From a virus, in the IMG/VR virus record IMGVR_UViG_3300003894_000032, positions 1 through 21,515 of that record: 21,515 nucleotides of DNA. One strand, 5' to 3'. Under the pieces are notes generated by a model. The model saw nothing but the letters and a program-made list of their open reading frames with translations, had not been told where the DNA came from and searched no databases. The position numbers and the translations under genes were made by a program. Below are positions 1 to 16,789 of this stretch, piece after piece; position 1 is the first letter of the stretch, and each line of letters starts with the position of its first letter.

Positions 1-266
1 TAAACCCATGCGAACAAAGTTTTATTTAAATTGCTAACTTTGCCTTTGTGGACAATGAACGCAGAAACTTTTCTAGACATCCCCGATCGGGATACACTAT
101 TGATCTGTGTATACAATTCTTTGTTATTTTTGCCTAAAATGGCTTGATACACACAAGGCAACAATTCCATAGCCTGTTCAACTGGATATTTCCTAAAATC
201 TGGCTCTTTGATTTTCTGCTTTGCAATTTCTTCCAATTTTGCTTTGATGATCTTTTTAGATTTCAT
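1..266 (-). CDS. Small phage protein with SRSGMSR motif (partial)
   Basis: The minus-strand frame opens with ATG at 266-264 and runs off the left edge after 88 codons. An AAAGGGGG ribosome binding site lies just upstream of the start. The product begins MKSKKIIKAKLEEIAKQ and carries the segment SVSRSGMSRKVSAFIV near residues 60-75. A serine/arginine motif of this type (SVSRSGMSR followed by a beta-strand-like stretch) recurs in small hypothetical proteins of many phages; its function is unknown to me. The start overlaps the stop of the 52-codon gene upstream (ATGA), so the two are probably translated in a coupled way from the promoter at 466-494. The C-terminus lies outside the window. Confidence 0.75.
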   Translation of the reverse strand, partial: MKSKKIIKAKLEEIAKQKIKEPDFRKYPVEQAMELLPCVYQAILGKNNKELYTQINSVSRSGMSRKVSAFIVHKGKVSNLNKTLFAWV

Positions 267-421
267 TTTTTGCCCCCTTTCAAATTTTGCTTTGTGAGTT
301 TGTGAGAAAATTTCCCTTTTCCGTTCAAAAGCGGAAAATCCATAAAAACGGTTAAACCGTACTTTTCATAATTCAAATTAGCTTGCTTCAATTTGTTCAA
401 GTCTCTTTGCAATTTTGTCAT
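263..421 (-). CDS. 52-residue unknown protein, coupled to the downstream gene
   Basis: The minus-strand frame starts with ATG at 421-419 and ends with TGA at 265-263. It is preceded by a TGGAG ribosome binding site. The product, beginning MTKLQRDLNKLKQANLNYEKYG and ending KQNLKGGKK, is basic and has a lysine/leucine/asparagine-rich N-terminal third that could form a helix. I recognise no family. Its stop overlaps the next start in an ATGA arrangement, and its last codons (Lys-Gly-Gly-Lys-Lys) also encode the ribosome binding site of that gene. It is the first gene behind the promoter at 466-494. The coupling and the promoter are the main reasons to believe in such a short gene. Confidence 0.6.
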   Translation of the reverse strand: MTKLQRDLNKLKQANLNYEKYGLTVFMDFPLLNGKGKFSHKLTKQNLKGGKK

Positions 422-449
422 TTTTTAGGTCTCCAATAGAATTTAAAAA

Positions 450-494
450 TCAACTAACTATAAATAATATAAATCATTAGTTGACAATAGTCAA
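450..494. promoter_or_regulatory. Inverted repeats around the promoter, candidate operator
   Basis: A perfect 8-bp inverted repeat, TCAACTAA (450-457) and TTAGTTGA (477-484), brackets the -10 box. A second, imperfect dyad TTGACAATAGTCAA (481-494) covers the -35 box. Such symmetry placed exactly on the promoter elements is typical of a repressor operator. No repressor gene is in the window, so the protein is unknown. Confidence 0.5.
466..494 (-). promoter_or_regulatory. Sigma70-type promoter for the leftward gene pair
   Basis: On the minus strand, TTGACT (494-489) and TATATT (471-466) are separated by exactly 17 bp, a near-consensus promoter. A start site near 459 would give a leader of about 38 nt before the ATG at 421. 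This drives the genes leaving the window on the left. Confidence 0.75.
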
Positions 495-496
495 GG

Positions 497-526
497 TTTT
501 TTTGTTCTTTTTTGTTCTTTTTTAAG
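497..526. repeat. T-rich direct repeat
   Basis: The 10-base unit TTTTTTGTTC occurs twice in tandem and is followed by another six T. The tract lies between the leftward promoter and the 42-bp array. It contains almost no purine on the plus strand. It could be an easily melted element or simply a spacer. Confidence 0.55.
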
Positions 527-569
527 TTTTCCTGATTTCCCAGTCGTGTTGCTCCACTAGGTCGGGGTA

Positions 570-853
570 TAGATTTACATTAACATTCACTGTATAGACC
601 AAGCACCAGGTTAGATTTACATTAGATGCCATTGTTCCAGGTCCACGATCAATAGATTTACATCCATTGTGCATCTAATGCGACGGTCCTGGACTAGATT
701 TACATTAACTGTGGTTGTGGATCTATGGACGGGGGCAGGGGTTACATGGAAAGTGAGTGTAAATCTATGGACGGGGACTAGATTTACATGGAAAGTTGAT
801 GTAGGTCTATGGTCCAGGAATTTTGCACACTTACAGTAAATGTAAATCTGTGG
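570..853. repeat. Tandem array of degenerate units with a ~42-bp period and internal dyads
   Basis: The motif AGATTTACAT (or its TTACAT core) recurs with the core starting at 575, 617, 658, 700, 742 and 784, giving steps of 42, 41, 42, 42 and 42 bp. Its inverted partner, of the type TGTAAATCTATGG, recurs with its TCT at 722, 764, 806 and 847, giving steps of 42, 42 and 41 bp. Where both arms survive, the distance from core to core is 22 bp. The unit at 775-815 folds as a stem of GGAC plus TAGATTTACAT against ATGTAGGTCTA plus GTCC. Two 13-mers, TCTATGGACGGGG and TTACATGGAAAGT, are repeated exactly 42 bp apart. No gene covers the array. It lies between two leftward transcription units, upstream of the promoter at 466-494. 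The period equals four turns of B-DNA, which suggests a set of same-face protein binding sites, but the function is not shown. Confidence 0.85.
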
Positions 854-897
854 CCATTAAGAACTCACCGAGAATTTTTGCAAATTTTCCAAAAAAG

Positions 898-949
898 CAA
901 TCCGACTTTTTCGCTGAAAAAATTTTCAGAAACTTTCAATCCGACTTTT
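898..949. repeat. 13-bp direct repeat flanking a small palindrome at the 3' end of the DUF551 gene
   Basis: CAATCCGACTTTT occurs at 898-910 and again at 937-949. The second copy holds the last codons and stop of the leftward DUF551 gene; the first lies 39 bp beyond it. Between them CTGAAAA (914-920) pairs with TTTTCAG (923-929). The palindrome might help stop the leftward transcript, but it has a two-base loop and is AT-rich. Confidence 0.5.
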
Positions 950-1391
950 CAAACCATTTAACAACATCCCACAAGCATCCACCAGATTGTTCAACATCTC
1001 GAACATTATCCAAGATATATTTCCCACACTCTTGGGAAATCCTTTTAGCGGTTCTGAACGATTTATTGGGAAAAATATCATTGCCCTCTGAGTCAGCAAC
1101 AAAGAACCGTTCGTCATCAATTTTGCTGATAAAGCCGATAGCAAATGGATCGTAAACAGAGCCATCCGGCCATGCGGTAGCAAGGACATAATCGCCAACG
1201 AATATTTTTGGTATCTTTGGTATGGGCATCCAATGAGTGATAAAACCACCTTTTGGGTCGAATGATCCTGCGTGGCAGTTCAGTCTTCCATTATCAAGTT
1301 GTCCTACAACAACGTAGTGCGCCCTTGGGGAACACAGCAGGATATCAGTAAGATCATTGGGAAGTTGTTCGTCAATACTGGTCCAATTCAT
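936..1391 (-). CDS. DUF551-family phage accessory protein
   Basis: The product has 151 residues. The first 65 or so match the DUF551 pattern: MNWTSIDEQLP at the start, a central strand region, and the signature ITHWMPIPKIP at about 51-61. The second part, VGDYVLATAWPDGSVYDPFAIGFISKIDDERFFVAD, followed by a helix near ISQECGKYIL, resembles a small beta-rich domain seen after DUF551 or alone in phage proteins. The biochemical role of both parts is unknown. An AAAGGAA ribosome binding site precedes the ATG at 1391. It is the last gene of the leftward operon that begins with the phosphoesterase. Confidence 0.8.
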   Translation of the reverse strand: MNWTSIDEQLPNDLTDILLCSPRAHYVVVGQLDNGRLNCHAGSFDPKGGFITHWMPIPKIPKIFVGDYVLATAWPDGSVYDPFAIGFISKIDDERFFVADSEGNDIFPNKSFRTAKRISQECGKYILDNVRDVEQSGGCLWDVVKWFEKSD

Positions 1392-2542: not shown

Positions 2543-3175
2543 ATGCCAATTATTTACATTAACGGTATAAATACATCTGAGATAGAGGCGAACGGTCAAG
2601 CAAGGTTGTTGGGTGATTTAACAGGTCGGAAGTGTGAGTTGTGTTACAACAAGACAGCTACGGCTGTGGTGGACTTGATGGAGAGTTTGTATAACCGTTG
2701 GGCTTATTGGTTGGTGCCCTTGCCAGTTACGCGGAAGTTAAGGAAGCGTATTCGTTCGCATTTGTCATTGGAGGCTACTGTCCATGTGGTGGCTCATTCG
2801 CAGGGGACGGTTATAGCGATGAATGCGGTACGAGGATTGACATTGGGAGAGCGTAAGCGAGTGACGATGACGCTGTTTGCTCCGGTTGCGACGCAGGAGC
2901 CCGATTTCGTTGATGTGGAGTATTTCCGTAATGAGTTTGACTATGTTGTGCAGGCGTTGCCCGGAACGTGGATCTTGAGGTTACTGCGTAGGATGCAGGG
3001 CAAGCGTAAGGAGAGGGCTGGTAAGACGCACGTTCGTCGAGGAGCGAAGGGTCATGCGCTTACAATGTCGTATTTGAAGCATTTGAAAGATTTCGAGACG
3101 TATGAAAGTAGTGGTATATGGCGTATTATAAACGAGAGCCGGTTTGATGAATGGTATTCGAGGTTAGTGAAATGA
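2543..3175 (+). CDS. Alpha/beta-hydrolase (lipase/esterase-like)
   Basis: The 210-residue product starts with a hydrophobic strand and Gly-Ile-Asn loop (IIYINGINTS). It carries the nucleophile elbow VHVVAHSQGTVIAMNAV with Ser86 in the G/A-x-S-x-G position. Asp133 (in RNEFDYV) and His171 (in KGHALTMSYLKHL) are placed as expected for the acid and base of the triad. This is the lipase/esterase-like arrangement of the alpha/beta-hydrolase fold. There is no signal peptide, so it starts in the cytoplasm. GGAGGG precedes the ATG. It heads a tight cassette with a lipoprotein and small membrane proteins just before the terminase, where lysis genes are often found. A role in envelope breakdown or in modifying host lipid is possible but unproven. 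The arginine/lysine-rich segment at 144-166 is notable. Confidence 0.8.
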   Translation: MPIIYINGINTSEIEANGQARLLGDLTGRKCELCYNKTATAVVDLMESLYNRWAYWLVPLPVTRKLRKRIRSHLSLEATVHVVAHSQGTVIAMNAVRGLTLGERKRVTMTLFAPVATQEPDFVDVEYFRNEFDYVVQALPGTWILRLLRRMQGKRKERAGKTHVRRGAKGHALTMSYLKHLKDFETYESSGIWRIINESRFDEWYSRLVK

Positions 3176-3528
3176 TGAGCAAACAATTAATTGCATTGTT
3201 AATGTTTGTGTTGGCAGGCTGTACATCAGGCCTGAACAATGCGGGTAAAACGTACGTGCATATAACCAAGCAGAGTGAAGCCAGTTGGGAAATTGAGTTG
3301 GACAGTGGTAAGGAGTACGATGCGGTGGATATCCAAATAGAAAAGACGAAAGAAGGATTGAAAGCCCATTATACTGCGTTCGGTGTTGAGGGAGAGCAGG
3401 TGTTGAAGCAGGTGGTGGAGAATAATACGCGCATTGCTGAGAAGTTTTCGGATATAGTCAAGAAGATTGCGCCGTATATGGCTCCGAATCCGTTATTGCT
3501 GTTGCCTGACAGTGGGACGATTGAATAA
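3172..3528 (+). CDS. Predicted lipoprotein
   Basis: Translation most likely begins at the ATG at 3172, which overlaps the hydrolase stop (ATGATGA) and has GAGG 8 bp upstream; an ATG at 3175 is the alternative. The product starts MMSKQLIALLMFVLAGCTSG, a type II signal peptide with lipobox LAGC, so the cysteine should be lipidated after cleavage. The mature part, about 100 residues, holds beta-strand-like repeats and then a helical stretch (EGEQVLKQVVENNTRIAEKFSDIVKKIAPYM), and ends in a leucine/proline-rich tail. No family is recognised. An outer-membrane lipoprotein next to short membrane proteins recalls an o-spanin, but the order and sizes do not match a classical Rz/Rz1 pair. Confidence 0.75.
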   Translation: MMSKQLIALLMFVLAGCTSGLNNAGKTYVHITKQSEASWEIELDSGKEYDAVDIQIEKTKEGLKAHYTAFGVEGEQVLKQVVENNTRIAEKFSDIVKKIAPYMAPNPLLLLPDSGTIE

Positions 3529-3596
3529 TGGTGCGGATTTATTTGATGAGTGCATCGCTGTTGGCGTTGTGCGTGTTAATCTGGAGTTTGGATTGA
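3528..3596 (+). CDS. 22-residue single-helix membrane peptide
   Basis: An ATG whose A is the last base of the lipoprotein stop codon (TAATG, 3526-3530) opens a frame encoding MVRIYLMSASLLALCVLIWSLD. It ends one base before the next start codon at 3598. The sequence is one hydrophobic helix with a positive N-end and an acidic C-end. The stop-start overlap and exact fit between neighbours support translation. Its size and character suit a small membrane effector or pinholin-like peptide, but no family can be named. Confidence 0.5.
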   Translation: MVRIYLMSASLLALCVLIWSLD

Positions 3597-3597
3597 G

Positions 3598-3783
3598 ATG
3601 AAGAATTTGACGACGTTGGAGAAGATTCTATTATCCGTGTTGGGAGTGATGTTGACGGCATGGTTAGGTTGGTTAACGACGACGGTGGTGAGCCTTGCGG
3701 ACAAAGCTCGTGAGGACACAGCCCAATGGGAAAAGATGCGCCGTTTGGAAGAGCGGATTAATAAATTTCATGACAGACATTGA
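3598..3783 (+). CDS. Small single-TM protein with a charged C-terminal helix
   Basis: The 61-residue product has a short N-terminus (MKNLTTLEK), one hydrophobic helix at about 10-33 (ILLSVLGVMLTAWLGWLTTTVVSL), and a charged helix (ADKAREDTAQWEKMRRLEERINKF) that may form a coiled coil. This layout, a membrane anchor followed by a short coiled coil, is seen in small phage holin- or i-spanin-like proteins, but it is shorter than a usual i-spanin. The gene starts one base after the stop of the 22-residue peptide, and its 3' end overlaps the next gene by 14 bp. Membership of a lysis cassette is inferred from context only. Confidence 0.7.
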   Translation: MKNLTTLEKILLSVLGVMLTAWLGWLTTTVVSLADKAREDTAQWEKMRRLEERINKFHDRH

Positions 3784-3997
3784 CGCTATGATGGGACATA
3801 GGATGAAGTTGAAGAATGGTGACGAAGTGGATGCCATATGTGCAAGGCGAGTGGTGAAGAATACGAACCCTTCGGCGATCAAGAAGATTTTAAATAAACG
3901 CTTGCGTAAGGAAGCAAAACAAACAATCTGCCACGACCACAATGAGTGGTTCCTATCAGCGAGTGCCGATCAGAACATGGTCGGCACCCTCCCCTAA
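3770..3997 (+). CDS. Unknown 75-residue basic protein
   Basis: The frame is open from further upstream, but the ATG at 3770 (MTDIDAMMGHRMKLKNG) fits best with the previous gene, overlapping it by 14 bp. No clear ribosome binding site is visible, so reinitiation is likely; ATGs at 3788 and 3791 are alternatives. The product is rich in lysine and arginine in the middle (IKKILNKRLRKEAKQ) and ends HNEWFLSASADQNMVGTLP. I recognise no family. It lies directly before the small terminase gene, and the end of its coding sequence contains two hairpins (3936-3950, 3963-3987). Confidence 0.55.
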   Translation: MTDIDAMMGHRMKLKNGDEVDAICARRVVKNTNPSAIKKILNKRLRKEAKQTICHDHNEWFLSASADQNMVGTLP

Positions 3998-4006
3998 AGG
4001 TGTAAT

Positions 4007-4678
4007 ATGACAAGCGCATTGACAGCCGAAGCGACGAACGCGTTCATAACTGGCTCAGAACCCTGTGATAGGCAGGTGTTTGAGAAGCCGGACAAGATGC
4101 AAAGGAAGTTTGCATTCGAACTTGCACGGGATCGTCGCCCGTTCTTCGCAGCAATACGTGTTGGGTACAGTTATGAGAAAGCCCTTGAAGCCAGGGAGTG
4201 GGTCTGTACGAGCCGTGAAGCGAGCAAGTACCCGTTAGTATATGATTTGTTTTTAAGTTGCTCAGATGAACGCTACGAGCGGGAGAGGATAGATATTCCC
4301 GCAGTAGTGGAGGAACTTGCCCACGTTGCATTGTCCGATATGAGTGATTTTATTGAGTGGGATACCGAGACGCATACCGAGACGGTAGTGGACCCAGATA
4401 CGTATGAGACGGAGCAGGTCACAGTTAAGAAGCAACAAGTGCGCCTGAAAGATATGTCTGAGATGACACCTGGAGCGGGAAGGGCGATAAAAGAATTGCG
4501 GGTGTCTGCGGAGGGAGAAATTTCGATAAAATTGCATGATAAGATGGCCGCGCTCCAGACGTTATTGAGGAAACTTTCACCAGATGTCAATACCCATATA
4601 AATATTAATGCCGATGCTACTGGGCCGAACAGCACCAAGCTCCTTCAGTCACTGGAGCGGTTTATGGAGACCCAGTAG
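4007..4678 (+). CDS. terS: Terminase small subunit
   Basis: The 223-residue product has an N-terminal helical part containing a DNA-recognition-like segment (KMQRKFAFELARDRRPFFAAIRVGYSYEKALEAREW, about 31-66). A middle section HVALSDMSDFIEW and a C-terminal section MTPGAGRAIKELRVSAEGEISIKLHDKMAALQTLLR match the pattern of small terminase subunits of the XtmA/Terminase_2 type. Small subunits form rings that recognise the packaging site and pass DNA to the large subunit. AAAGG precedes the ATG. The large subunit gene follows after an inserted minus-strand gene, which is unusual because the two are normally adjacent or overlapping. Confidence 0.85.
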   Translation: MTSALTAEATNAFITGSEPCDRQVFEKPDKMQRKFAFELARDRRPFFAAIRVGYSYEKALEAREWVCTSREASKYPLVYDLFLSCSDERYERERIDIPAVVEELAHVALSDMSDFIEWDTETHTETVVDPDTYETEQVTVKKQQVRLKDMSEMTPGAGRAIKELRVSAEGEISIKLHDKMAALQTLLRKLSPDVNTHININADATGPNSTKLLQSLERFMETQ

Positions 4679-4685
4679 TACTGTT

Positions 4686-4982
4686 TCAATTGTACTTGGC
4701 ACTGTTGGTTCTACTTCTTGTAGCAATGGTGATTTCGTAAATGTCCTGACTCAATTGGTTTAATTTTTCCACGAAAACATTGACATTTTGAAACGGTGGT
4801 TTTGAAAATTCAAGAATTAAAGACACAATTTCATCGTGGAATTTATCAGAGATGGCAACGGATAGGAATTGTTTAAAGGAGTTTAGATCAAGTTCTTCAG
4901 AAGTATTGTTAATGTGAATTTCAGCAGTTTTTTGTAGTATACTTTTGACGCACAGGTCGTAAGTGTCTTCTATAGGTTTCAT
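4686..4982 (-). CDS. Antisense insert between terminase genes, unknown 98-residue protein
   Basis: This minus-strand gene fills the gap between the two terminase genes. It begins with ATG at 4982, preceded by AAAGG, and ends 7 bp from the small terminase stop. It has its own promoter at 5017-5045. The product is mostly helical and acidic in its first half (MKPIEDTYDLCVKSILQK), with phenylalanine- and leucine-rich segments (FHDEIVSLILEFSKPPFQNVNVFVEKLNQLSQDIYEI) and a short basic end. I recognise no family. A self-contained gene of opposite strand with its own promoter inside a structural operon fits the definition of a moron, a gene often expressed in a lysogen, although prophage status is not shown here. 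Confidence 0.7.
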   Translation of the reverse strand: MKPIEDTYDLCVKSILQKTAEIHINNTSEELDLNSFKQFLSVAISDKFHDEIVSLILEFSKPPFQNVNVFVEKLNQLSQDIYEITIATRSRTNSAKYN

Positions 4983-5016
4983 AATTTGCCTTTTTTGTTA
5001 GTTGTTATTTAAAACT

Positions 5017-5045
5017 ATCATAACCGTTAGTTAAATAAAAGTAAA
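5017..5045 (-). promoter_or_regulatory. Promoter of the antisense insert
   Basis: On the minus strand TTTACT (5045-5040) and TATGAT (5022-5017) are 17 bp apart, 35 bp or more upstream of the ATG at 4982. The -35 box includes the first base of the large terminase start codon, so the promoter and terminase translation start share sequence. Confidence 0.6.
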
Positions 5046-6613
5046 TGAGTGATTCAGCTTTAATAAAACATCTTAAATCATTGGATGACTCACTCCGCGA
5101 AAAATTTTTTGCATCGTTGGTTGAGGAGGAGCGCGTAGCATTGCAAAAAGTTTTGAAGGACAGAGAGGTGGTGGAGAAAGCTGAAACGTCGTTGCGGGAG
5201 TTTATACCGCAGGCGTGGGCCATGGCTGATCCCAGTAAGTTCAAGGGTGGTTATCATATTGATGCGTTGTGCGATCATTTGCAAGCTGTGGTAAACGGTG
5301 GGATAAAGCGTTTGATAATAAATATACCGCCGAGGCACATGAAGTCCTTGGCGGTGGCAGTTCATTTCCCTGCGTGGACATGGATTAACCATCCAAAGAT
5401 ACGTTTTTTGTTTTCGAGTTACTCTGAGAAGTTGAGCATGAGGGATAGCGTTAAGTGCCGTAGGATACTGACCAGTGGATGGTATAGAGCGAATTGGGGA
5501 GACAGGTTTTCACTGGCGTACGATCAGAACCAGAAGTTGAGATACGAGAATGACAAGGGCGGGTATCGGTTGGCCACGTCTGTAGATGGAGCCACAACTG
5601 GTGAGGGTGGCGATATCATCGTGGTGGACGATCCGCACAACGTGACCGAAACAGAGTCCGATACAAAGCGGAATGCAGTATTGGATTGGTGGGACGAGGC
5701 GATGTCCTCCAGGTTGAATGATATAGAGACAGGCGCATACATCATCGTGATGCAAAGGGTTCATGAGAACGATCTGGTGGGACATATCTTGGCCAAGAAC
5801 AATCATTGGGATCATTTGTGCTTGCCCGCGATGTTTGAGGATGACCATCCGACACCAAGTAAGACTGTGTTGGATTTCAAGGATCACAGGAAGGATGGAG
5901 ATCCATTATGGCCCGACAGATTTTCACCTGCGGCTTTGGAAGACCTTGCAGATAGCATGGGGCCGTACGCGTCTGCTGGTCAGTTACAACAACGACCTGC
6001 ACCCCGTGAAGGCGGGATGTTTAAGAGTGAGTATTTTGAAATTGTTGAGCATGGACCTGTGAAGCCAATGGCAGTGGTGAGGCATTGGGACTTGGCGGCC
6101 ACAAAGAAATTGAGGAACAATAAGCCAGCGTATACGGCGGGTGTGAAGGTCAGTTTGGATAACAGAGGTACGTTTTACATCGAACATATCGCTCGTTTCA
6201 GAAAGTCAGCAGAGCAAGTATTGCCAGAGGTGCAACGGATTGCATGGGAAGATGGAAAGAGAGTGATGATCAGTTTGCCACAAGATCCAGGTCAGGCAGG
6301 AAAATTTCAGGGACAGTATTATGTGAAAGAACTGGTTGGGTTCACAGCCCATGCACGTCCAGAGACAGGAGATAAGATCACACGTGCAGCACCCATTGCG
6401 TCGCAGGCAGAAGCAGGTAATATAAAAATTGTGAAGGGTGATTGGAATAAAGCGTTTTTGGACGAATTGCAACATTTTCCGAATGGTTCGTATAAGGATC
6501 AAGTGGATGCTTTATCCGGTGCTTTTGAAGATTTGTTTCCAAAGAAGAAACGGGGTACAATAACGGACTTGAAACAGGCTACGAGTATGACCAAAGTGAG
6601 CAAGTGGAGATAA
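5045..6613 (+). CDS. terL: Terminase large subunit
   Basis: The 522-residue product is a complete packaging motor. The ATPase part shows a Walker A-like loop PPRHMKS at 95-101, Walker B DIIVVDD at 190-196, and a coupling-type motif QRVHENDL at 237-244. The C-terminal RNase H-like nuclease part shows RHWDLAATKK at 346-355 (Asp349), SLPQDPGQAGK at 410-420 (Asp414) and DQVDALSGAFEDLF at 485-498, as expected for metal-binding acidic residues. ATP hydrolysis drives DNA into the prohead through the portal, and the nuclease cuts the concatemer. No good ribosome binding site precedes the ATG at 5045, where the region is occupied by the promoter of the antisense gene. The portal gene follows after 3 bp. 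Confidence 0.97.
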   Translation: MSDSALIKHLKSLDDSLREKFFASLVEEERVALQKVLKDREVVEKAETSLREFIPQAWAMADPSKFKGGYHIDALCDHLQAVVNGGIKRLIINIPPRHMKSLAVAVHFPAWTWINHPKIRFLFSSYSEKLSMRDSVKCRRILTSGWYRANWGDRFSLAYDQNQKLRYENDKGGYRLATSVDGATTGEGGDIIVVDDPHNVTETESDTKRNAVLDWWDEAMSSRLNDIETGAYIIVMQRVHENDLVGHILAKNNHWDHLCLPAMFEDDHPTPSKTVLDFKDHRKDGDPLWPDRFSPAALEDLADSMGPYASAGQLQQRPAPREGGMFKSEYFEIVEHGPVKPMAVVRHWDLAATKKLRNNKPAYTAGVKVSLDNRGTFYIEHIARFRKSAEQVLPEVQRIAWEDGKRVMISLPQDPGQAGKFQGQYYVKELVGFTAHARPETGDKITRAAPIASQAEAGNIKIVKGDWNKAFLDELQHFPNGSYKDQVDALSGAFEDLFPKKKRGTITDLKQATSMTKVSKWR

Positions 6614-6616
6614 AAT

Positions 6617-7987
6617 ATGAATGATCAGGTAGCAGACGTATCCAAGGGAGACGGTACAGCTCCAATGAAGGCCATGGGATTTTCTGGTTTGAAGCACGAC
6701 TCTGGTTATGTACGTGAAGAGTTTTTGCAGAAGTTGCAGGGCGAGAGAGGTATAAAAGTTTACAAAGAGATGGCTGATAACGATCCAGTCATTGGTGCTA
6801 TTTTATATACAGTTAGTACACTGTTGCAGGGTGTCACATGGTCGATCGAACCAGACGATGAGCATAATGCAGAGGATGTTGCGGCAGCAGAGTTTGTAGA
6901 TAGTTGTGCCGAGGACATGGACTTCACGATGGATGAGTTTATTGACGAGGTGTTGTCGATGCTGGTGTATGGGTGGTCATTTTTCGAAAAGATTTTTAAA
7001 GTACGTTTGGGAGATAAAGGCAAGGTTCCAAGTAAATTTGATGACGGTAAGATTGGGTGGAAAAGATTTGGAATACGTTCGCAGGACACATTGAGGCGGT
7101 GGGTGTTCAATGATGAAGGCGATGTACTAGCGATGGTACAGGGACCGTCGTATAACATGGGGTATACGTCCTCCAAGAATTATGATGAAGTGACAATTCC
7201 AATGGATAAAGGATTGTTGTTTCGTACGCGAGCGTTTAAGAACAATCCAGAAGGTCGGAGCATTTTAAGAAATGCTTATAGGCCTTGGTATTTTAAAACG
7301 AATATTGAGTCCATCGAGGCCATTGGAATCGAGCGGGACTTAGCGGGGTTGCCGGTGGTGTGGGTTCCCCAGGAGCTGTTGGCAGAAGGGGCATCAACAG
7401 AGGAGCAACAGGTTCTGACAAGTTTGAAGGACATGATAAAGAATATTCGTAATGATGAGCAGGCAGGAGTGGTCATGCCCAATATATACGATGAGAGCGG
7501 AAATCCACTGTATAAGTTGGAGCTACTTACAACAGGCGGTCGAAAGGCATTTGATACGTCTAAGATAATCACGCGGTACGAGCAACGTATTGCGATGACG
7601 GCGTTAGCGGATTTCATGATGCTTGGTTTGGAAAAGTTTGGATCTTTTTCATTGGCATCGGAAAAAACGAATATGTTCACATCTGCGTTGGGAGCGATGT
7701 TGGAAAATATATCTTCAACGTTCACGAAACACGCCATACCTCAACTGCTGAGTTTGAACAATATGTCCGGTAAGGTACGATTGGTTCATGGTGATATTGA
7801 GGATAGACCACTGAGTGAGATCACGGAGTTTGTTTCTAAATTGTCAGGTGCAGGAGTTATTGTTCCAGACGAAGAGTTGGAAGAAGCTTTGCGTAAGTTG
7901 GCAGATTTGCCTAAGAAAGGTGGTTCAATTTCTCCTATAATTGGGGAGGAGGAAGGTGGACGAGAAGATGAGGATATGAATGAGTAA
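6617..7987 (+). CDS. Portal protein (DUF935/Mu gp29-like)
   Basis: The 456-residue product follows the large terminase directly and precedes a MuF-type head protein, the usual place of a portal gene. The N-terminal segment IKVYKEMADNDPVIGAILYTVSTLLQGVTWSIEP (about 36-69) and the later VDSCAEDMDFTMDEFIDEVLSMLVYGWSFFEKIFKVR are typical of the DUF935/Mu gp29-like portal family. Portal proteins form the twelve-part ring at one capsid vertex through which DNA passes. The C-terminus is acidic (GEEEGGREDEDMNE). GGAG precedes the start and the gene overlaps the next by 8 bp. Confidence 0.9.
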   Translation: MNDQVADVSKGDGTAPMKAMGFSGLKHDSGYVREEFLQKLQGERGIKVYKEMADNDPVIGAILYTVSTLLQGVTWSIEPDDEHNAEDVAAAEFVDSCAEDMDFTMDEFIDEVLSMLVYGWSFFEKIFKVRLGDKGKVPSKFDDGKIGWKRFGIRSQDTLRRWVFNDEGDVLAMVQGPSYNMGYTSSKNYDEVTIPMDKGLLFRTRAFKNNPEGRSILRNAYRPWYFKTNIESIEAIGIERDLAGLPVVWVPQELLAEGASTEEQQVLTSLKDMIKNIRNDEQAGVVMPNIYDESGNPLYKLELLTTGGRKAFDTSKIITRYEQRIAMTALADFMMLGLEKFGSFSLASEKTNMFTSALGAMLENISSTFTKHAIPQLLSLNNMSGKVRLVHGDIEDRPLSEITEFVSKLSGAGVIVPDEELEEALRKLADLPKKGGSISPIIGEEEGGREDEDMNE

Positions 7988-9137
7988 ACCCACTGGTCCC
8001 ATTGTTGCTGTGGCTGATAAAGAGATGCCCTTGATAAAGGGGAGACTTCTACGTGCTTTCAGAAGTTTACAGAAGGGAGTGACGATCAGAGGTATTATGG
8101 AGTCGTGGGTGCGAGGCGGTGATCAGGGGGTTATGAATTATATCCGTGTGGAGAGGTTAGAAAAAGCACTGAGTGGGTTGTTGAATATACCGTTCTATGC
8201 AGGGTACTTTGCAGAAAAAAGAAATTTAAAATTTCTATTAGGGATACAGAAAGCCGAGTTCAAAGATGAGTTGGGGTTCAATCTTAAATTTGATGGAAGT
8301 AATCCAGAAGTAGAGTCTTTCTTACAGGCAACGAATTTGGCGTTTGTAGGGAATGTAACGAATGCTACACGGGAGACAATACGAAGTACAATTTCAAGAG
8401 CATTTGTTGAAGGAGGCAATCCGAGATTACAGGCACGTCAGATACGCGATAGTATTGGAGTATTGTCACAGCACGAGCAAGCAATAAGAAATTTTAGATT
8501 GCAATTGACAGAGAGGTCGAATGCACCTGGTGGTCATGCAATGCGGCCTGCTCACTTACGTAGATTATTTGAGAGTGACAAGAGAAGTGTCAGGCAACAC
8601 ATGTTGAATGGAACATTTTCCCAGAAGCACATAGATGAAATGGTGGATGTGTACCAAGATAGATTGATTGATTATCGAGCTGAGATGATAACCCGAACAG
8701 AGACACTTAGAGCGGCCCATGCAGGTCAGCAGGCATTATGGAAACAGGCTACAGATGAGGGGTTGTTGCCAGATACTGCGAGACGCAAGTGGGTGTTCAC
8801 AAAAGATGAAAGAACTCGGGAGTCGCATAAAGCTATTCCGAAGTTAAATGCACACGGTGTAAAGGTTGGAGAGGCTTTCAAAACATCATTTGGGCCTGTG
8901 TTCCATCCACCTGCTGGACCGAATTGCAGGTGTACTGTGGTGCTTGATCCAGATGCTGGAGAGAAAGAAGTGATTGGTTCCTCGTCGCCAAATACAATTA
9001 CATTGGAAGAAACTGTAAGGCCCATAGTATTTGATCAACAGGTCAGGACACCCGCAATTGTGGCTGGTGCATTGGCGACAGAAGTGGTTGTTTCTGCAAT
9101 CGCAGAGGAAGTTGTGTTTGAGGAGAATATTCTATAG
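7980..9137 (+). CDS. MuF-like head morphogenesis protein
   Basis: The 385-residue product has a helical N-terminal two-thirds and a C-terminal MuF/SPP1 gp7-type domain. This includes ITRTETLRAAHAGQQALWKQA from residue 237, the segment RRKWVFTKDERTRESHKA at 268-284, and the cysteine-bearing end HPPAGPNCRCTVVLDP at 309-324. Such minor head proteins associate with the portal and are packaged in small numbers. The last 45 residues (IVFDQQVRTPAIVAGALATEVVVSAIAEEVVFEENIL) are hydrophobic and acidic and look like an added tail. The gene overlaps the portal gene by 8 bp. Its stop codon lies inside the 5' arm of the terminator-like hairpin at 9134-9173. Confidence 0.9.
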   Translation: MSKPTGPIVAVADKEMPLIKGRLLRAFRSLQKGVTIRGIMESWVRGGDQGVMNYIRVERLEKALSGLLNIPFYAGYFAEKRNLKFLLGIQKAEFKDELGFNLKFDGSNPEVESFLQATNLAFVGNVTNATRETIRSTISRAFVEGGNPRLQARQIRDSIGVLSQHEQAIRNFRLQLTERSNAPGGHAMRPAHLRRLFESDKRSVRQHMLNGTFSQKHIDEMVDVYQDRLIDYRAEMITRTETLRAAHAGQQALWKQATDEGLLPDTARRKWVFTKDERTRESHKAIPKLNAHGVKVGEAFKTSFGPVFHPPAGPNCRCTVVLDPDAGEKEVIGSSSPNTITLEETVRPIVFDQQVRTPAIVAGALATEVVVSAIAEEVVFEENIL

Positions 9138-9173
9138 ATTTACATTAATTGTAAAAGTAAATCTATCTTTTTT
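9134..9173 (+). terminator. Hairpin with T tract between head genes; solitary copy of the 42-bp array unit
   Basis: ATAGATTTAC (9134-9143) pairs perfectly with GTAAATCTAT (9157-9166) around a 13-nt loop and is followed by CTTTTTTT. This has the shape of an intrinsic terminator on the plus strand, although the stem has few G-C pairs. The arms are the same words, at the same 22-bp spacing, as in the array at 570-853. It lies after the MuF gene and before the protease gene, so it probably reduces rather than ends transcription of the downstream structural genes. Confidence 0.65.
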
Positions 9174-9211
9174 TAGTTTTTATGTGTAGGATAATACGCA
9201 GGAGGATGTTT

Positions 9212-9604
9212 ATGTCTGAATTTAGTTTTGATGCCAAGATTCAAAAGCTTGATGAAGAACGACAGTTGTGTTTTGGATGGTTCAGTGTCGTTGAGGATAG
9301 CAATGGTGTTGTGGAGGATCATGAAGGAGACATCATTAAGTCCGAGGACTTGGAAGAAGCGGCATATCAGTTCGTGATTGATGCTCGTATTGCTGGTGAA
9401 AACCATCTTCGTAAAGGTGTGGGCGTACTTGTTGAGTCCATGATGTTCACCAAAGAGAAGCAAGAGATGTTGGGGATTGATCTTCAGAAAGTAGGTTGGT
9501 GGGGTGGTTTTAAAATTACGGATGAAGATGTGTGGGCAAAAGTGAAGTCTGGCGAGTTCCAATCATTCAGTATTGGTGGTCGCGGTGATAGGGAGGAAAT
9601 TTAA
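9212..9604 (+). CDS. XkdF-like prohead protease
   Basis: The start is placed at the ATG at 9212, six bases after GGAGG (9201-9205), rather than at ATGs further upstream; the product then has 130 residues. It matches the XkdF-type phage serine protease pattern: QLCFGWFSVVEDSNGVVEDHEGDIIKSEDLEEAAYQFVIDAR, then a GENHLRKGVGVLVESMMFTKEK block that includes the conserved His and Glu-Ser, and WWGGFKITDEDVWAKVKSGEFQSFSIGG. This family is thought to act as the maturation protease of the prohead, cutting scaffold and sometimes capsid protein. The end overlaps the scaffold gene start (TAATG), a common protease-scaffold arrangement. Confidence 0.88.
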   Translation: MSEFSFDAKIQKLDEERQLCFGWFSVVEDSNGVVEDHEGDIIKSEDLEEAAYQFVIDARIAGENHLRKGVGVLVESMMFTKEKQEMLGIDLQKVGWWGGFKITDEDVWAKVKSGEFQSFSIGGRGDREEI

Positions 9605-10512
9605 TGGCCACAAAGAAAAATAAGAAAAAGTCTTTGCTGACAAATCTGAGCGTACAGGAAGTTTCGTTCTGTCGTAAGGGGATGAATCCTGGAGCTAAAG
9701 TGGCGTTGTTCAAAAGTGAAGATGTGGATAGAGAGTTTTTAGTGAAGGAAAGTATAAAACAGTTTAGTGAAGCGACTCAGAATCTTATAGAGCCGCTTGC
9801 TAAAACCAAAGACGCAATGAGCGTTACAAAACAAGAACAGGAGTTCAAAGGTATGAACGAGAAAGAACTGAAGGAATTGATTTCCAAAATGAAGTTGGAT
9901 GACGCTACGTCTGCCGCACTTGTTGGGATGCACACGCAAACCGCAGAAGCGGTAGAAATGTCTAAGTCCCTGCAAGAGAAACTGGATGCTTCTGAAAAGG
10001 AAATTGGGAAGCTGAAAGAAGCGTTGAAAGAAGGAGCAGTAGAAAAAGAGGATGAGGCGGTTGCCAAGGCTAAAGCTGATGGTGCAAGCGAAGAAATTTT
10101 GAAAATTCTTTCTGCACAGAGCGAAGAGATAAACAAGATGAAAGAGCAAAATGCTCGTCGTGAGTTCATCTCCAAGGCGGTTCCTCTTGAGCAAGCCGGT
10201 CTGGGCAAGAAAGAAGATCTTGGTGAGATTTTGAGGAAGGCTGATGCAACCGATGTCGAGTTTGGTAAGGCGTTGTTGGAAACATTAAGTAAAGCGGCCA
10301 AGGTTGTGAAGGAGAGTGATCTCCTGAAGCAGGTGGGTAACGAGGGTAGTAATGATGATTCAGGATCGGATTCTATCATCAGCAAGGTAAGAGCGGGTGC
10401 TGCTGAGCTGCGCAAAAGTGATCCGAACATGACTGCCGAACAAGCAGAATCAAACTTCCTGTTGAACAATCCTGAACTTTACGAAGAGTATGTTCAATCA
10501 GGGAAAAAATAA
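9604..10512 (+). CDS. Scaffolding protein (XkdF-associated)
   Basis: The 302-residue product starts with a basic end and the block LTNLSVQEVSFCRKGMNPGAKVALFK (about 12-37), a motif found at the junction of XkdF proteases and their scaffolds. The rest is highly charged, lacks large hydrophobic cores and is rich in heptad-like helix (KSLQEKLDASEKEIGKLKEALKEGAVEKEDEAVAKAKA, about 120-158), as expected for a scaffold that fills the prohead and is later removed. A glycine/serine/aspartate-rich linker (NEGSNDDSGSDS) precedes a C-terminal helical part that may bind capsid protein. It starts within the stop of the protease gene. Confidence 0.8.
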   Translation: MATKKNKKKSLLTNLSVQEVSFCRKGMNPGAKVALFKSEDVDREFLVKESIKQFSEATQNLIEPLAKTKDAMSVTKQEQEFKGMNEKELKELISKMKLDDATSAALVGMHTQTAEAVEMSKSLQEKLDASEKEIGKLKEALKEGAVEKEDEAVAKAKADGASEEILKILSAQSEEINKMKEQNARREFISKAVPLEQAGLGKKEDLGEILRKADATDVEFGKALLETLSKAAKVVKESDLLKQVGNEGSNDDSGSDSIISKVRAGAAELRKSDPNMTAEQAESNFLLNNPELYEEYVQSGKK

Positions 10513-10562
10513 GTGAGCGTTGATTTTTTTTTTATTAAAACAGTTTTTTGGAGGTTTTTATT

Positions 10563-10937
10563 ATGGCACATGTGGAGAATGTTAGTTATTTCACGCGGCC
10601 TGCTGCGGCTGATCTCTCTGCAAAGCAGTATTTTTTCATGCAGATTGATAGTAGCGGTAATGTGAATGTTTCAGGTGATGGTGGTGTAGCTGACGGTGTG
10701 CTGGCCAATAAACCATCAGCATCCGGTCGAGCGGCAACATTAGCTATGAACGGGATTATGAAGGTGGAATTGGGCGGTACAGTGACCGCAGGGGATGACG
10801 TAGCGAGTGACAGTGCTGGTAAGGCTGTAGTTGCAACGACAGGCGATGTAAAACTGGGTACGTGCGTTGTAGGTGGAGCAAGCGGGTCAGTTGGAAGCAT
10901 TCGTCTGGCGTTGGAGAACAGAGAAGCTCTGGCTTAA
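10563..10937 (+). CDS. Capsid decoration protein (DUF2190-like)
   Basis: The start is set at the ATG at 10563, eight bases after GGAGG; a TTG at 10548 upstream is not needed. The 124-residue product has the pattern of small head-decoration proteins: KQYFFMQIDSSGNVNVSGDGGVADGVLANKPSASGRAATLAMNGIMKVELGGTVTAGDDVASDSAGKAVVATTG, with repeated glycine turns and short strands. Such proteins bind the outside of the expanded capsid and stabilise it. It lies between scaffold and major capsid genes. A run of ten T (10524-10533) stands upstream without a convincing stem. Confidence 0.8.
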   Translation: MAHVENVSYFTRPAAADLSAKQYFFMQIDSSGNVNVSGDGGVADGVLANKPSASGRAATLAMNGIMKVELGGTVTAGDDVASDSAGKAVVATTGDVKLGTCVVGGASGSVGSIRLALENREALA

Positions 10938-10978
10938 TTTTTTATTTTATTTTTAATTTATTGTAATGGAGGTAAACT

Positions 10979-11968
10979 ATGCCGTTGCCAGCAGAAAGTG
11001 ATGTGCATGTAAATGGGCCGTTGACAAATATGTCAGTTGCCTATATTCAAAATGCGAGTAATTTTATTGCGTCAAGAGTATTTCCAAATATTCCTGTCAC
11101 AAAGCAGAGTGATGCGTATTACTCGTACGATAGAGGTTATTTTAATAAGGACGAAGCAGCCGTTCGTGCGCCTAGTACGGAGAGTAAAGGTGGCGGGTAC
11201 GCCATCGACGCTAACAGTAGCTACTACTGTAAAGTGTATGCTTTTCACAAAGACATTGACGATCAAGTTCGTTCGAATGCTGATTCTGTACTTCAATTGG
11301 ATCGAGAAGCCACAGAATACGTAACGAAAAAGATGTTGATCAGAAAAGAAAAAGACTGGGCAACATCTTATTTTGCAACGGGTATTTGGACGACTGATAT
11401 TGCAGGAGTATCAGGTACACCTACGACCGGTGAAGCTAAGCAGTGGAACGATGCGGCTTCTACGCCTATCGAGGATGTAACAGCCGGTAAGACGGTGGTC
11501 ATGCAGTCAACTGGATTTGATCCAAATACACTCGTTATTGGGCGAGAAGTTTGGGATCAGTTGAAAAATCATCCTGATATCATTGATCGAGTTAAAGCTG
11601 GTCAGACACCGAATGGGCCTGCAATGGGGCTATTGCAATCCGTTGCGATGATCATGGAATTGGAAAGAATCCTTGTCATGCAGTCCATTGAGAATACCGC
11701 AGAGGAGGGTGCGACGAACTCTCATGCTTTCATCGGTGGCAAAAAGGCGTTGCTGTGCTATTCTGCTCCAACTCCTGGAATCATGACACCATCTGCGGGA
11801 TACACCTTTTCATGGGCAGGTATGAACGGTGCAGGTAACGATGGTATGCGAATTAAACGATTTCGCAGAGAGGCGATTGAATCAGATCGTGTAGAAGGAC
11901 AAATGGCTTTTGATCAGAAGTTGATTTCTGCTGATCTTGGTTATTTTTTCAACGATATCGTTGCATAA
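10979..11968 (+). CDS. Major capsid protein
   Basis: The 329-residue product follows scaffold and decoration genes and precedes connector genes, the usual place of the HK97-fold major capsid protein. It has the N-terminal segment IQNASNFIASRVFPNIPVTKQSDAYYSYDRGYF, the central AYAFHKDIDDQVRSNA-type spine helix region, DREATEYVTKKMLIRKEKDWATSYFATGIW, and a C-terminal region that aligns in kind with capsid P-domain strands (PNTLVIGREVWDQLKNHPDIIDRVK). TGGAGG precedes the start at good spacing, consistent with strong expression. The fold is inferred from family pattern and position, not from structure. Confidence 0.88.
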   Translation: MPLPAESDVHVNGPLTNMSVAYIQNASNFIASRVFPNIPVTKQSDAYYSYDRGYFNKDEAAVRAPSTESKGGGYAIDANSSYYCKVYAFHKDIDDQVRSNADSVLQLDREATEYVTKKMLIRKEKDWATSYFATGIWTTDIAGVSGTPTTGEAKQWNDAASTPIEDVTAGKTVVMQSTGFDPNTLVIGREVWDQLKNHPDIIDRVKAGQTPNGPAMGLLQSVAMIMELERILVMQSIENTAEEGATNSHAFIGGKKALLCYSAPTPGIMTPSAGYTFSWAGMNGAGNDGMRIKRFRREAIESDRVEGQMAFDQKLISADLGYFFNDIVA

Positions 11969-11989
11969 TAATCCAATGCGGAGATAGTA

Positions 11990-12325
11990 ATGGTAACTGC
12001 GAACATAATTGATACCCGTGAAACAGTAGTGGCTAGAAGGCCATTCTGTTTCGACGGGGTGCAGTATAACAGGGATGATGAGTTTCCTTGGTTGGATATT
12101 GGTGCTGAAGAGAGGCGTGTGCATCAATTGTTCGATCAGGGTTATTTAATTCCCAAACGGATGCGTATGGATACGCTCGGTACAAAAGAACCATGGGAAG
12201 ATGCTAGTTTAACTGGTAGAGCATTATGGCAAGCTACAGTTAAACGAGCGCAAGAATTAGGTGTCCCATCCAAAGGAGGAACTTCCGTTGTTACCGAGCG
12301 TATCAAAGAACATTTGGCTAAATGA
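11990..12325 (+). CDS. Small virion-region protein with a SAP-like C-terminus
   Basis: The 111-residue product has an N-terminal part with aromatic and acidic residues (FCFDGVQYNRDDEFPWLDIGAEERRVHQLFDQGYLIP) that resembles small post-capsid phage proteins. Its C-terminal helix-turn-helix-like part, WQATVKRAQELGVPSKGGTSVVTERIKEHL, resembles a SAP or HeH-type motif. These motifs can bind nucleic acid; the function in the phage is unknown. CGGAG precedes the ATG. The last coding bases carry the perfect ribosome binding site AAAGGAGG for the next gene, whose TTG start lies inside this one. Confidence 0.7.
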   Translation: MVTANIIDTRETVVARRPFCFDGVQYNRDDEFPWLDIGAEERRVHQLFDQGYLIPKRMRMDTLGTKEPWEDASLTGRALWQATVKRAQELGVPSKGGTSVVTERIKEHLAK

Positions 12326-12911
12326 TACGGTTTTTATAATAGGTGGTGGGCCAAGTTTAGCTGGAGTTGATCTACAAAGGTTGCAGGGGAAGGGAGTATT
12401 GTTAGCGGTAAACGAAGCGTATAATAAGATACCGTATTGTAATGCGCTGTTCACCTGTGACCGTTTGTGGTTCCGCCATAATGTAAAAACTTTTGATAGT
12501 CGTCCAGATGTTTTAAAATTTGTAGCGTTGCCCAAAGATATGGTGATACCTGAGTTCTCTGGGACGTTATTGGAGCGGAGTAGGGAAGACGGTTTGAGCT
12601 ACGATCCGAGTTCAATACGTATTAATGGCAATTCAGGTTTTGGTGCATTGAATTTAGCGGTGCTTGCGGGTGCAAAACGGATAGTGTTGTTGGGTTTTGA
12701 TTTAAAACCAACAGCGAGTGTAACGCACTGGCATGGTGGGTATATCTGGTTTGACAAGCGCAATGAAACAGGGATGTATCCCCGTTGGATAAGGGCGTTT
12801 GAAACAGTCTCCAAAGAACTGTATGATATGGGGGTGAATGTTTTGAACATCAACAAGGATAGTGCAATTCGTTGTTTTGATTTCATCGACTTTGAGGATT
12901 TGTGTAAATGA
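12288..12911 (+). CDS. DUF115-like Rossmann protein, glycan-related (copy A)
   Basis: Translation is placed at the TTG at 12288, eight bases after the perfect AAAGGAGG (12272-12279), rather than at a GTG at 12261 that has no such site. The 207-residue product has the nucleotide-binding-like GGGPSL at 19-24, LLAVNEAYNKIPYCNALF at 38-55, the motif NSGFGALNLAVLAGAKRIVLLGFDL at 115-139, and THWHGGY at 146-152. This is the pattern of phage proteins related to the DUF115 (MptE-like) family, often annotated as glycosyltransferase- or lipopolysaccharide-related. The reaction is not known for the phage forms. It is inserted between the gene after the capsid protein and the head-tail adaptor, and is a clear paralogue of the gene at 14526. 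Confidence 0.75.
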   Translation: MLPSVSKNIWLNDTVFIIGGGPSLAGVDLQRLQGKGVLLAVNEAYNKIPYCNALFTCDRLWFRHNVKTFDSRPDVLKFVALPKDMVIPEFSGTLLERSREDGLSYDPSSIRINGNSGFGALNLAVLAGAKRIVLLGFDLKPTASVTHWHGGYIWFDKRNETGMYPRWIRAFETVSKELYDMGVNVLNINKDSAIRCFDFIDFEDLCK

Positions 12912-13348
12912 CCTGGACATATAGTGGTGATCCATCTGCCAATAACCGTGATGAAATACGATTCATGGTAGGCGATACAGATACTAATGATCAGTTGGTT
13001 ACAGATGAGGAAATTGCCTACGCAATTGCTGAAGAGGATAACAACTTGCTCGCTGCAAGTAGAATAGCAAATGCGATTGCCGCACAGTTTGCTCGTCGAA
13101 CGGATACCGAGGTTGGTGACTTAAGGAAGTGGTATAGTCAACGTTTCACTCAGTACACTGAACTGGCTAATAAGCTCAGACAACGGGGTGGACTGCTGTC
13201 ATCAGTACCGTATGTAGGCGGTATAAGCATCGACGATAAGCAGAGTGCAAAAGATGATTCAGATAGAGTCAAGCCCCGTTTTTCAAGAGGTCAGTTTTCA
13301 GATTTGGATAATAGCGAGTCACCTGAAAGATTATCTGCGGATATTTAA
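12908..13348 (+). CDS. Head-tail connector (adaptor) protein
   Basis: The 146-residue product begins MTWTYSGDPSANNRDEIRFMVGDTDTNDQLVTDEEIAYAIAEEDNNLLAASRIANAIAAQFARRTD. This matches the gp6-like head-tail adaptor pattern of a short helix with Arg-Asp-Glu, an acidic VTDEEI block and a long alanine-rich helix. The C-terminal helix (DLRKWYSQRFTQYTELANKLRQRGG) and flexible tail are usual. Adaptor rings sit below the portal. Its start overlaps the stop of the DUF115-like gene (ATGA). Confidence 0.85.
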   Translation: MTWTYSGDPSANNRDEIRFMVGDTDTNDQLVTDEEIAYAIAEEDNNLLAASRIANAIAAQFARRTDTEVGDLRKWYSQRFTQYTELANKLRQRGGLLSSVPYVGGISIDDKQSAKDDSDRVKPRFSRGQFSDLDNSESPERLSADI

Positions 13349-13350
13349 TC

Positions 13351-13698
13351 ATGCCAATAACAGATTTCTTGGAATTGCTTCAGCAAACAGTTACGTTGGC
13401 GGCGTTCTCAAGTCAGAATATTTACGGTACGGCAACGTATGCGTCAGGGGTTACATATAAAGCACGTATCGTGAAACGGCCACATAGGGTGCGCAATAAT
13501 TCTGGTGAAACAGTCGTAGCAAAAGGAGAGGTATGGTTTGGGCCACCAACTGCTGATTTGACAGATTCAACACCTCCAACAATTACAACACAGGACCGTA
13601 TAACATTACCCGACGCTAGCACACCTATCATATTATCAGTGGACGTGGTTAGCGATGACAGTGGTGGGTATCATCATACGAAGGTGCATTTTGGCTAA
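13351..13698 (+). CDS. Head closure (stopper) protein
   Basis: The 115-residue product is beta-rich (QTVTLAAFSSQNIYGTATYASGVTYKARIVKRPHRVRNNSGETVVAKGEVWF) and ends YHHTKVHFG. It follows the adaptor by 2 bp. The order adaptor, this protein, HK97 gp10-like protein, tail terminator matches the connector module of siphophages, in which this position holds the stopper that closes the head after packaging. Assigned from position and strand pattern. Confidence 0.75.
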   Translation: MPITDFLELLQQTVTLAAFSSQNIYGTATYASGVTYKARIVKRPHRVRNNSGETVVAKGEVWFGPPTADLTDSTPPTITTQDRITLPDASTPIILSVDVVSDDSGGYHHTKVHFG

Positions 13699-14146
13699 TA
13701 AAGTAAGTGTAAAAGTTTCTGGATTGACTAAGCTATTAAGTCAATTGAGCACAATACCTGACAGAGCTGAAAAGGCTGCAAAATCTTCTCTTTACATTGA
13801 GGGAGAGAGGATAATGGCAAAGTCTAAAGAACTCGTGCCTGTAGATACGGGCGCATTGCGTTCTTCTGGAACCGTAAGACTCCCCGTGAAAGACAAATCA
13901 GGGAAGATAACAGTTTCATTGGAGTATGGTGGAGTTGCAAAGGGAGTGTTTACAAGCGAGAGGACAGGTAATGTCAAAAACAGTCCCAATACAACCGAGT
14001 ATGCGCTCAAGGTTCACGAGGATTTGTCAATGAGACATGAGCCACCCACACAGGCCAAGTATTTGGAACAACCTTTTAGGGAAGCGATGAACAGGATGCC
14101 AACACGATTGGGCAGAGGTATAATAAAAGCTTTGAGGCGACTTTAA
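13691..14146 (+). CDS. HK97 gp10-like tail completion protein
   Basis: The start is placed at TTG (13691), which has AAGG at 13681 and overlaps the stopper gene by 8 bp; the product then begins MANKVSVKVSGLTKLLSQLSTIPDRAEKAAKSSLYIEGERIMAKSKELVPVDTGALRSSGTV. The segment AKSKELVPVDTGALRSS is the signature of the HK97 gp10-like family, which takes part in joining head and tail. The 151-residue length is normal for the family. A C-terminal part with PPTQAKYLEQPFREAM is also typical. Confidence 0.85.
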   Translation: MANKVSVKVSGLTKLLSQLSTIPDRAEKAAKSSLYIEGERIMAKSKELVPVDTGALRSSGTVRLPVKDKSGKITVSLEYGGVAKGVFTSERTGNVKNSPNTTEYALKVHEDLSMRHEPPTQAKYLEQPFREAMNRMPTRLGRGIIKALRRL

Positions 14147-14529
14147 TGGCGTTATTGGAAGATATCAATACAAAATTAGAAGCTGACAGTGTGACAGGTG
14201 GTGCTACGGGTTGGACAGTGCGTATTGGACCCATGACTGACCAGATTGATCAATTGGTGGTTTTGGCAGAGACAGGCGGGTTCCCTCCTGACCAGTTTGG
14301 TTCAACGTTGTCTGGTGAACAGACGTTTCAAGTTCGTGTTCGAGCGGGTAGACGAAGATACGACACTGCCCGTTCTAAAATGCAGGACGTATTCAATTCA
14401 TTGAACGCTTCAACAATCAGTGGTCATTTTTACACGTACGCTTTGAGCAGTGGGCCGTTGTTCATGGGATTTGATGCTAATGAGAGGCCAGAGTTTGTGC
14501 AGAACTTCAAGGTACGCAAGGCATTATGA
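14146..14529 (+). CDS. Tail terminator protein
   Basis: The 127-residue product has an N-terminal helix (MALLEDINTKLEADS), a strand region (TGWTVRIGPMTDQIDQLVVLAETGGFP), QTFQVRVRAGRRRYDTARSKMQDVFNSLN, and a final strand pair. This is the layout of tail terminator/minor capsid proteins that cap the head-proximal end of the tail tube. It starts at the last base of the preceding gene's stop (TAATG) and overlaps the next gene (ATGA). The usual neighbour, the tail tube gene, is displaced 1.8 kb downstream by three inserted genes. Confidence 0.78.
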   Translation: MALLEDINTKLEADSVTGGATGWTVRIGPMTDQIDQLVVLAETGGFPPDQFGSTLSGEQTFQVRVRAGRRRYDTARSKMQDVFNSLNASTISGHFYTYALSSGPLFMGFDANERPEFVQNFKVRKAL

Positions 14530-16332: not shown

Positions 16333-16353
16333 AAATTGTTGGAGGATTGAATT

Positions 16354-16761: not shown

Positions 16762-16789
16762 TGTTAATTCCTAATGAAGGAGGCTTGTA

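Follow-up and report, generated by a model that had tools for sequence, protein, structure and literature searches.

PICI origins carry two sets of iterons flanking an AT-rich region and work with a primase and a replication initiator, in some cases fused as Pri-Rep (PMC6092414). When this two-set form was described in 2018, it was ascribed to PICIs and to no other known bacterial replicon (PMC6092414). The lambda ori combines iterons bound by the O protein with an adjoining AT-rich tract (PMC7466680). Here we describe an array of phased, inverted short sites that lies beside an AT-rich stretch in viral DNA, and we compare it with these origins, with analogous loci in related phages and with phage operators.

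The window, meaning the whole stretch of DNA analysed, is the 21,515-bp IMG/VR record IMGVR_UViG_3300003894_000032, probably a fragment of an uncultured tailed phage. It starts with a short block of leftward genes (1-2407), followed from 2.5 kb by rightward genes coding for TerS, TerL, a Mu-type portal, a Mu gpF-like protein and the capsid. Judged from protein identities, the virion genes put the phage near the RDJL1/KPP23-type siphoviruses: among named phages its capsid has its closest matches here, being 52-53% identical to those of the Roseobacter RDJL phages, 52% to that of KPP23 and 48% to those of Rhizobium RHph phages, and metagenomic capsids reach up to 63%. Two related proteins of the virion operon (12261-12911 and 14526-15131) both match the same L012 region at ~27%, and the former has a sub-threshold match to the Pfam family MptE-like. 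No replication or partition gene, lambda O homologue or Pri-Rep gene was recognised among the proteins scanned in this 21.5-kb fragment. The whole element is held by the longest gene-free stretch of the window, within the leftward block (Table 1).

A phased array of inverted half-sites

Two half-sites, TAGATTTACAT pointing right and ATGTAAATCTA pointing left, recur in a common 42-bp register over the entire array. The former is found at 570, 612, 653, 695 and 779 and in a weak form at 737, and its reverse complement at 757, 799 and 840 with a partial copy at 716. A repeat search recovered the 12-nt left arm at 569, 611, 652, 694 and 778 (steps of 42, 41, 42 and 84) and 19-nt copies of the right arm at 710, 752, 794 and 835 (steps of 42, 42 and 41). 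The TTACAT cores listed in the first-pass annotation (575, 617, 658, 700, 742 and 784) are exact, and its inverted partners are likewise found near 722, 764, 806 and 847.

Table 1. Features of the array locus and of analogous arrays in relatives
Feature	Position	Strand	Remarks
Leftward-promoter downstream gene	3-266	-	truncated by contig end; without family match
Intergenic gap holding the whole element	267-935	.	669 bp; flanked by two leftward genes; from ORF list and sequence
Most AT-rich 100 bp of the window	430-529	.	GC 0.20; putative unwinding element and promoter region
Sigma-70-like promoter TTGACT-17-TATATT	466-494	-	10/12 consensus matches
Three T-tracts (T7, T6, T6)	497-523	.	10-bp phasing; predicted curved DNA or UP-element-like
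Array, ~7 units in 42-bp steps	569-853	.	unit ATAGATTTACAT-N9-ATGTAAATCTATGG; arms 20 bp apart
Unit 1, left arm ATAGATTTACAT	569-580	+	repeat search
Unit 2, left arm TTAGATTTACAT	611-622	+	repeat search
Unit 3, left arm ATAGATTTACAT	652-663	+	repeat search
Unit 4, left arm full, right arm partial (GTGGATCTATGG)	694-727	.	
Unit 5, left arm partial (GGTTACAT), right arm GTGTAAATCTATGG	736-769	.	
Unit 6, both arms, TAGATTTACAT-N9-ATGTAGGTCTA	778-812	.	
Unit 7, right arm only, ATGTAAATCTGTGG	840-853	-	
DUF551 gene, ends at array gap	936-1391	-	leftward gene
TerS (4007-4678) and TerL (5045-6613)	4007-6613	+	3.1 kb downstream of array; positional reference for comparison
Solitary copy ATAGATTTACATTAATTGTAAAAGTAAATCTAT	9134-9166	.	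array arms at identical 20-bp offset, then T-tract; also terminator-like
RDJL1 array	L146:19215-19491		GCTATAC x9
RDJL2 array	L148:4372-4647		GCTATAC x9
RDJL6 array	L151:6416-6695		CTGGTCC x9
Tedan array	L149:22170-23430		GCCTTAC x10 and CCTTACA x9, two modules

Comparison with chance confirmed that the array is real. TRF reported a repeat of period 42 at 691-812 with 71% matches, and the autocorrelation of 541-860 has its top peak at lag 42 (0.453), followed by lags 83/84, 125 and 21. The annotated recurrence every 41-42 bp is therefore borne out by the copy steps, the TRF period and the autocorrelation alike. Self-identity also exceeded that of simulated sequence, since 2000 Markov simulations gave at lags 41-43 a mean self-identity of 0.282 and a maximum of 0.355. 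Moreover, GATTTAC (seven copies) forms the window's sole bidirectional 7-mer cluster of at least five, and the maximum in 60 simulated windows was 5.

The units had been described as palindromic, but the locus is an array of half-sites: both arms are found in the middle units 4-6 alone, the left one weak in unit 5 and the right one partial in unit 4, with the left arm standing essentially by itself in units 1-3 and the right arm in unit 7. Because the right arm is poor in units 1-3 and the left arm in unit 7, the functional unit is best taken as one half-site per ~2 helical turns. Arms are better conserved among units than the centre and linkers: mean pairwise identity is 0.73 for the left arm over all units (0.88 over units 1-6) and 0.73 for the right arm over units 4-7, against 0.43 for the centre and 0.40 for the 10-bp linker (0.60 over units 4-7). 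The annotated pattern of kept arms around a drifting centre thus stands as regards the arms, and conservation of the GGAC/GTCC flanks is not clear given the linker identity of 0.40. Helical phasing, also proposed at first pass, is upheld by a step equal to four helical turns and by the spacing of the arms.

Several other descriptions of the array were rejected. A global dyad symmetry is not claimed, the self-complement score of the whole array being only z 2.3. No ORF of at least 60 aa lies within 541-822, which speaks against a coding repeat, and a CRISPR-like array does not fit units that are imperfect and inverted instead of exact repeats with unique spacers. Function at the RNA level was set aside in the same way: there was no match at the gathering threshold to the known noncoding RNA families of Rfam, and two of the six folded stretches (unit 6 and the solitary site) clearly beat shuffles. 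Just right of the array, an exact 13-bp direct repeat, CAATCCGACTTTT, is found at 898-910 and 937-949 (39-bp step), and the latter copy reaches into the end of the DUF551 gene.

On its left, the array adjoins AT-rich DNA. The AT- or T-rich neighbour that had been noted beside the array proved to be the GC minimum of the window, and TRF found a period of 10 with 100% match in its T-tracts (498-523). These phased A-tracts sit upstream of the -35 box of the leftward promoter. No TAGATTTACAT site with up to two mismatches is found left of the AT-rich stretch.

The first-pass annotation missed a solitary full copy of the unit, located at the end of the gpF-like gene between two virion genes. The chance expectation for its 11-mer is ~0.01 per window. 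Its hairpin has a perfect 10-bp stem (-8.0 kcal/mol, z -2.84) followed by a T-tract; since the stem is AT-rich and the loop long, it would be a weak intrinsic terminator. The copy could serve as a terminator or as an operator, or could simply be a stray site of binding.

Strand composition weakly suggests a switch at the array. At third positions of the leftward genes right of the array the + strand is G-rich (138 G vs 82 C, p = 2e-4), and the reverse is seen left of it (14 G vs 20 C, p = 0.02) in one truncated gene only. The short noncoding stretches just right of the array are C-rich, which is the opposite direction. Rightward genes (2543-21515) have a strong coding-strand GC skew, with a mean of +0.26 per gene and of +0.36 at third positions. 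Among the relatives, Tedan has no skew flip at the corresponding gap, and the differences in RDJL1 and KPP23 are small and inconsistent.

Analogous arrays in virion-gene relatives

The array DNA itself has no similar DNA in the phage, plasmid, viral-contig or genome-contig collections searched, and in this sense alone the first-pass remark that no phage element of this exact form is known is borne out. A blastn search of the gap against phages and plasmids returned only weak short matches at query positions 155-229 (421-495 of the window), which correspond to the AT-rich tract, outside the array. Scans for paired or palindromic half-site patterns found only chance pairs and one unrelated array among viral contigs, and nothing among genome contigs. 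That unrelated array (L005:3440-3660), found via the motif search alone, is a TTACAT/ATGTAA array of its own in a 1-kb gap between divergent genes, with half-site CAGATTTACATGG and extended palindrome ATGCGACTCAGTTACAT. No viral contig with shared early genes came up when TerL, portal, capsid and DUF551 were used as queries.

Relatives by virion genes were scanned for 7-mers clustered in both orientations, over 49.7 kb of RDJL1, 14 kb each of RDJL2 and RDJL6, and 48 kb of Tedan. In RDJL1, RDJL2 and RDJL6 the sole bidirectional cluster of the scanned stretch falls in one long gene-free gap, and in Tedan one such gap holds the two largest clusters together with a weaker one. In all four phages this gap is located ~3-6 kb upstream of TerS and also has the lowest-GC 100 bp of the stretch. 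The sites are unrelated in sequence to those of the window and are mostly 9-bp iterons around an AT core, whereas the window has 42-bp units and a one-sided AT-rich part. Inverted site sets surround AT-rich DNA in RDJL1 and Tedan. RDJL1 and RDJL2 have kept the iteron part in common, while much of the rest of the gap has diverged. Additionally, genes for Prim-Pol/PriCT_2/DUF5906 proteins lie at 2-3 kb from this gap in the genomes of RDJL1, RDJL6 and Tedan. Judged by site layout and gene content, the anatomy of the gaps of RDJL1, RDJL2, RDJL6 and Tedan is PICI-origin-like, here in tailed phages. The records of these siphoviruses carry no annotated replication origin, and the literature searched mentions none.

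Other relatives are more varied. An 865-bp gap at a comparable location is found in KPP23 and RSP, and in KPP23 it contains a 520-bp imperfect palindrome (self-complement z 9.4) and a k-mer cluster within chance. Among metagenomic relatives, G015 carries a GGCATACA array upstream of TerL, and G010, related by portal and capsid, has four to five palindromic TTTAACCTAGTAAAC sites in ~32-bp steps upstream of TerL (L158:752-886), with matches of 0-2 mismatches nowhere else in the contig. A weaker TGGTCTT cluster was seen in G019. No such cluster was found in YuA (1-50 kb), RHph_Y60, G011, G012 or G016, and in several array-less relatives the AT minimum falls directly ahead of the terminase genes. 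A further contig, L051, has a 9-mer array of TGGTCCGGG (5466-5770) and, upstream of TerL (8870-9100), palindromes of the TGTCAAGCGCTTGACA type that form an array of their own. Since these relatives share virion genes and no early genes with the window, the shared position is an analogy and not a demonstrated homology.

Candidate functions of the array

An origin, a centromere, an activator array and a packaging or regulatory protein sink had all been put forward at first pass, an interpretation that is partly supported; the origin gains most, through the analogous arrays of the relatives. We give about even credence to the reading that the gap is an iteron-type replication origin or part of one. 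This is the best reading because the layout of the window resembles that of lambda ori, with iterons and an adjoining AT-rich tract. The sites repeat in phase, are of a type that proteins bind, and lie in gene-free DNA next to an AT-rich neighbour; strand composition leans mildly in favour of an origin. We infer an initiator, wrapping of the DNA, melting and origin function as follows. A phage-encoded initiator, not recognised in the 21.5-kb fragment, would bind the half-sites, which at ~2 helical turns and in alternating orientation would present themselves on one face of the helix. It would build a wrapped nucleoprotein complex over the array, and this complex would melt the adjoining AT-rich, A-tract-curved DNA, where helicase and primase would be loaded. 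Opening may be aided by transcription from the leftward promoter. Several observations argue against an origin: no replication gene was recognised in the window; the relatives have only virion genes in common with it, their sites are built differently, and some of them show no cluster; the skew switch involves one truncated gene and finds no consistent counterpart in relatives; the AT-rich stretch doubles as a promoter region, and AT-rich stretches also occur at promoters; and a solitary site lies at 9134, away from the array.

The main alternative, which we consider less probable, is an operator or upstream-activator array: the half-sites, phased and positioned at about -110 to -395 relative to the leftward promoter, would be bound by a phage regulator that turns the leftward operon on or off, and the site at 9134 would be a second operator or a regulated terminator in the virion operon. 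This option stays alive because a good leftward promoter adjoins the array, with the phased A-tracts in place upstream; inverted half-sites would suit a dimeric regulator, and the solitary full site sits between two virion genes. Promoter-like matches are, however, no commoner in the window than in shuffles, and some 10 half-sites within 285 bp, the nearest of them over 100 bp upstream of the start, are unusual for a phage operator. In addition, a common promoter setting is missing, as the arrays of RDJL1 and Tedan lie among rightward genes and that of KPP23 among leftward genes.

The distance to the terminase genes brings in a packaging site (pac, bound by TerS) or a partition centromere (bound by a partition protein), which we consider improbable. 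Both cosB and centromeres typically contain repeated sites, the array precedes TerS by 3.1 kb, and the arrays of the relatives are likewise upstream of terminase genes. Pac and cos sites are nevertheless usually located within the TerS gene or right beside it, whereas the distance from array to TerS is ~3 to 6 kb and variable among relatives; for a centromere, the scanned window proteins include no recognised partition gene.

Finally, tandem copies of a hairpin or terminator-like repeat, now decaying and without function and seeded by the 9134 element or vice versa, would account for the arm lost in units 1-3 and 7 and for the perfect stem and T-tail of the solitary copy, but this is quite improbable, as arms more alike than linkers and centre and a maintained 41-42-bp step are the reverse of what neutral decay predicts and most units tested fold no better than shuffles as RNA.

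Comparison with known origins and operators

If the array is an origin, it provides a concrete, clonable test piece; it would also imply that origin sites are replaced faster than origin layout, and would connect virulent phages with the origin design seen in phage satellites, their competitors for replication and packaging.

Phage operator arrays resemble the window in having dyad-related sites near a promoter and a solitary site elsewhere, and differ from it in that the window has many more sites in a strict 42-bp step, all well upstream of the start. Lambda ori, like the window, has tandem inverted-repeat sites beside a one-sided AT-rich tract. It lies, however, inside gene O and consists of four 19-bp iterons, whereas the array of the window is intergenic with wider sites, and no O homologue was recognised.

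PICI/SaPI origins share with the window an array of short sites and an AT-rich stretch in gene-free DNA, and share with its relatives the inverted iteron sets around an AT-rich core together with a Prim-Pol/helicase protein. The window departs from them in its one-sided AT-rich stretch, its 42-bp split-dyad units and a fragment without a recognised Pri-Rep gene. The arrays of RDJL1, RDJL2, RDJL6 and Tedan match that of the window in their long gene-free gap upstream of terminase, their sites in both orientations and their lowest GC; sites and spacing are unrelated (9-bp sites), the AT core is mostly within the array and the flanking genes are non-homologous. Rather unlikely as a general scheme, but worth stating, is that RDJL1/KPP23-like siphoviruses and their metagenomic kin share one origin type, in which layout and position upstream of terminase would be kept and the recognised sequence replaced, each phage having its own initiator-iteron pair; the window would then represent a form whose 42-bp split-dyad units all lie to one side of the DNA that melts, and RDJL1 and Tedan the two-set form of PICIs.
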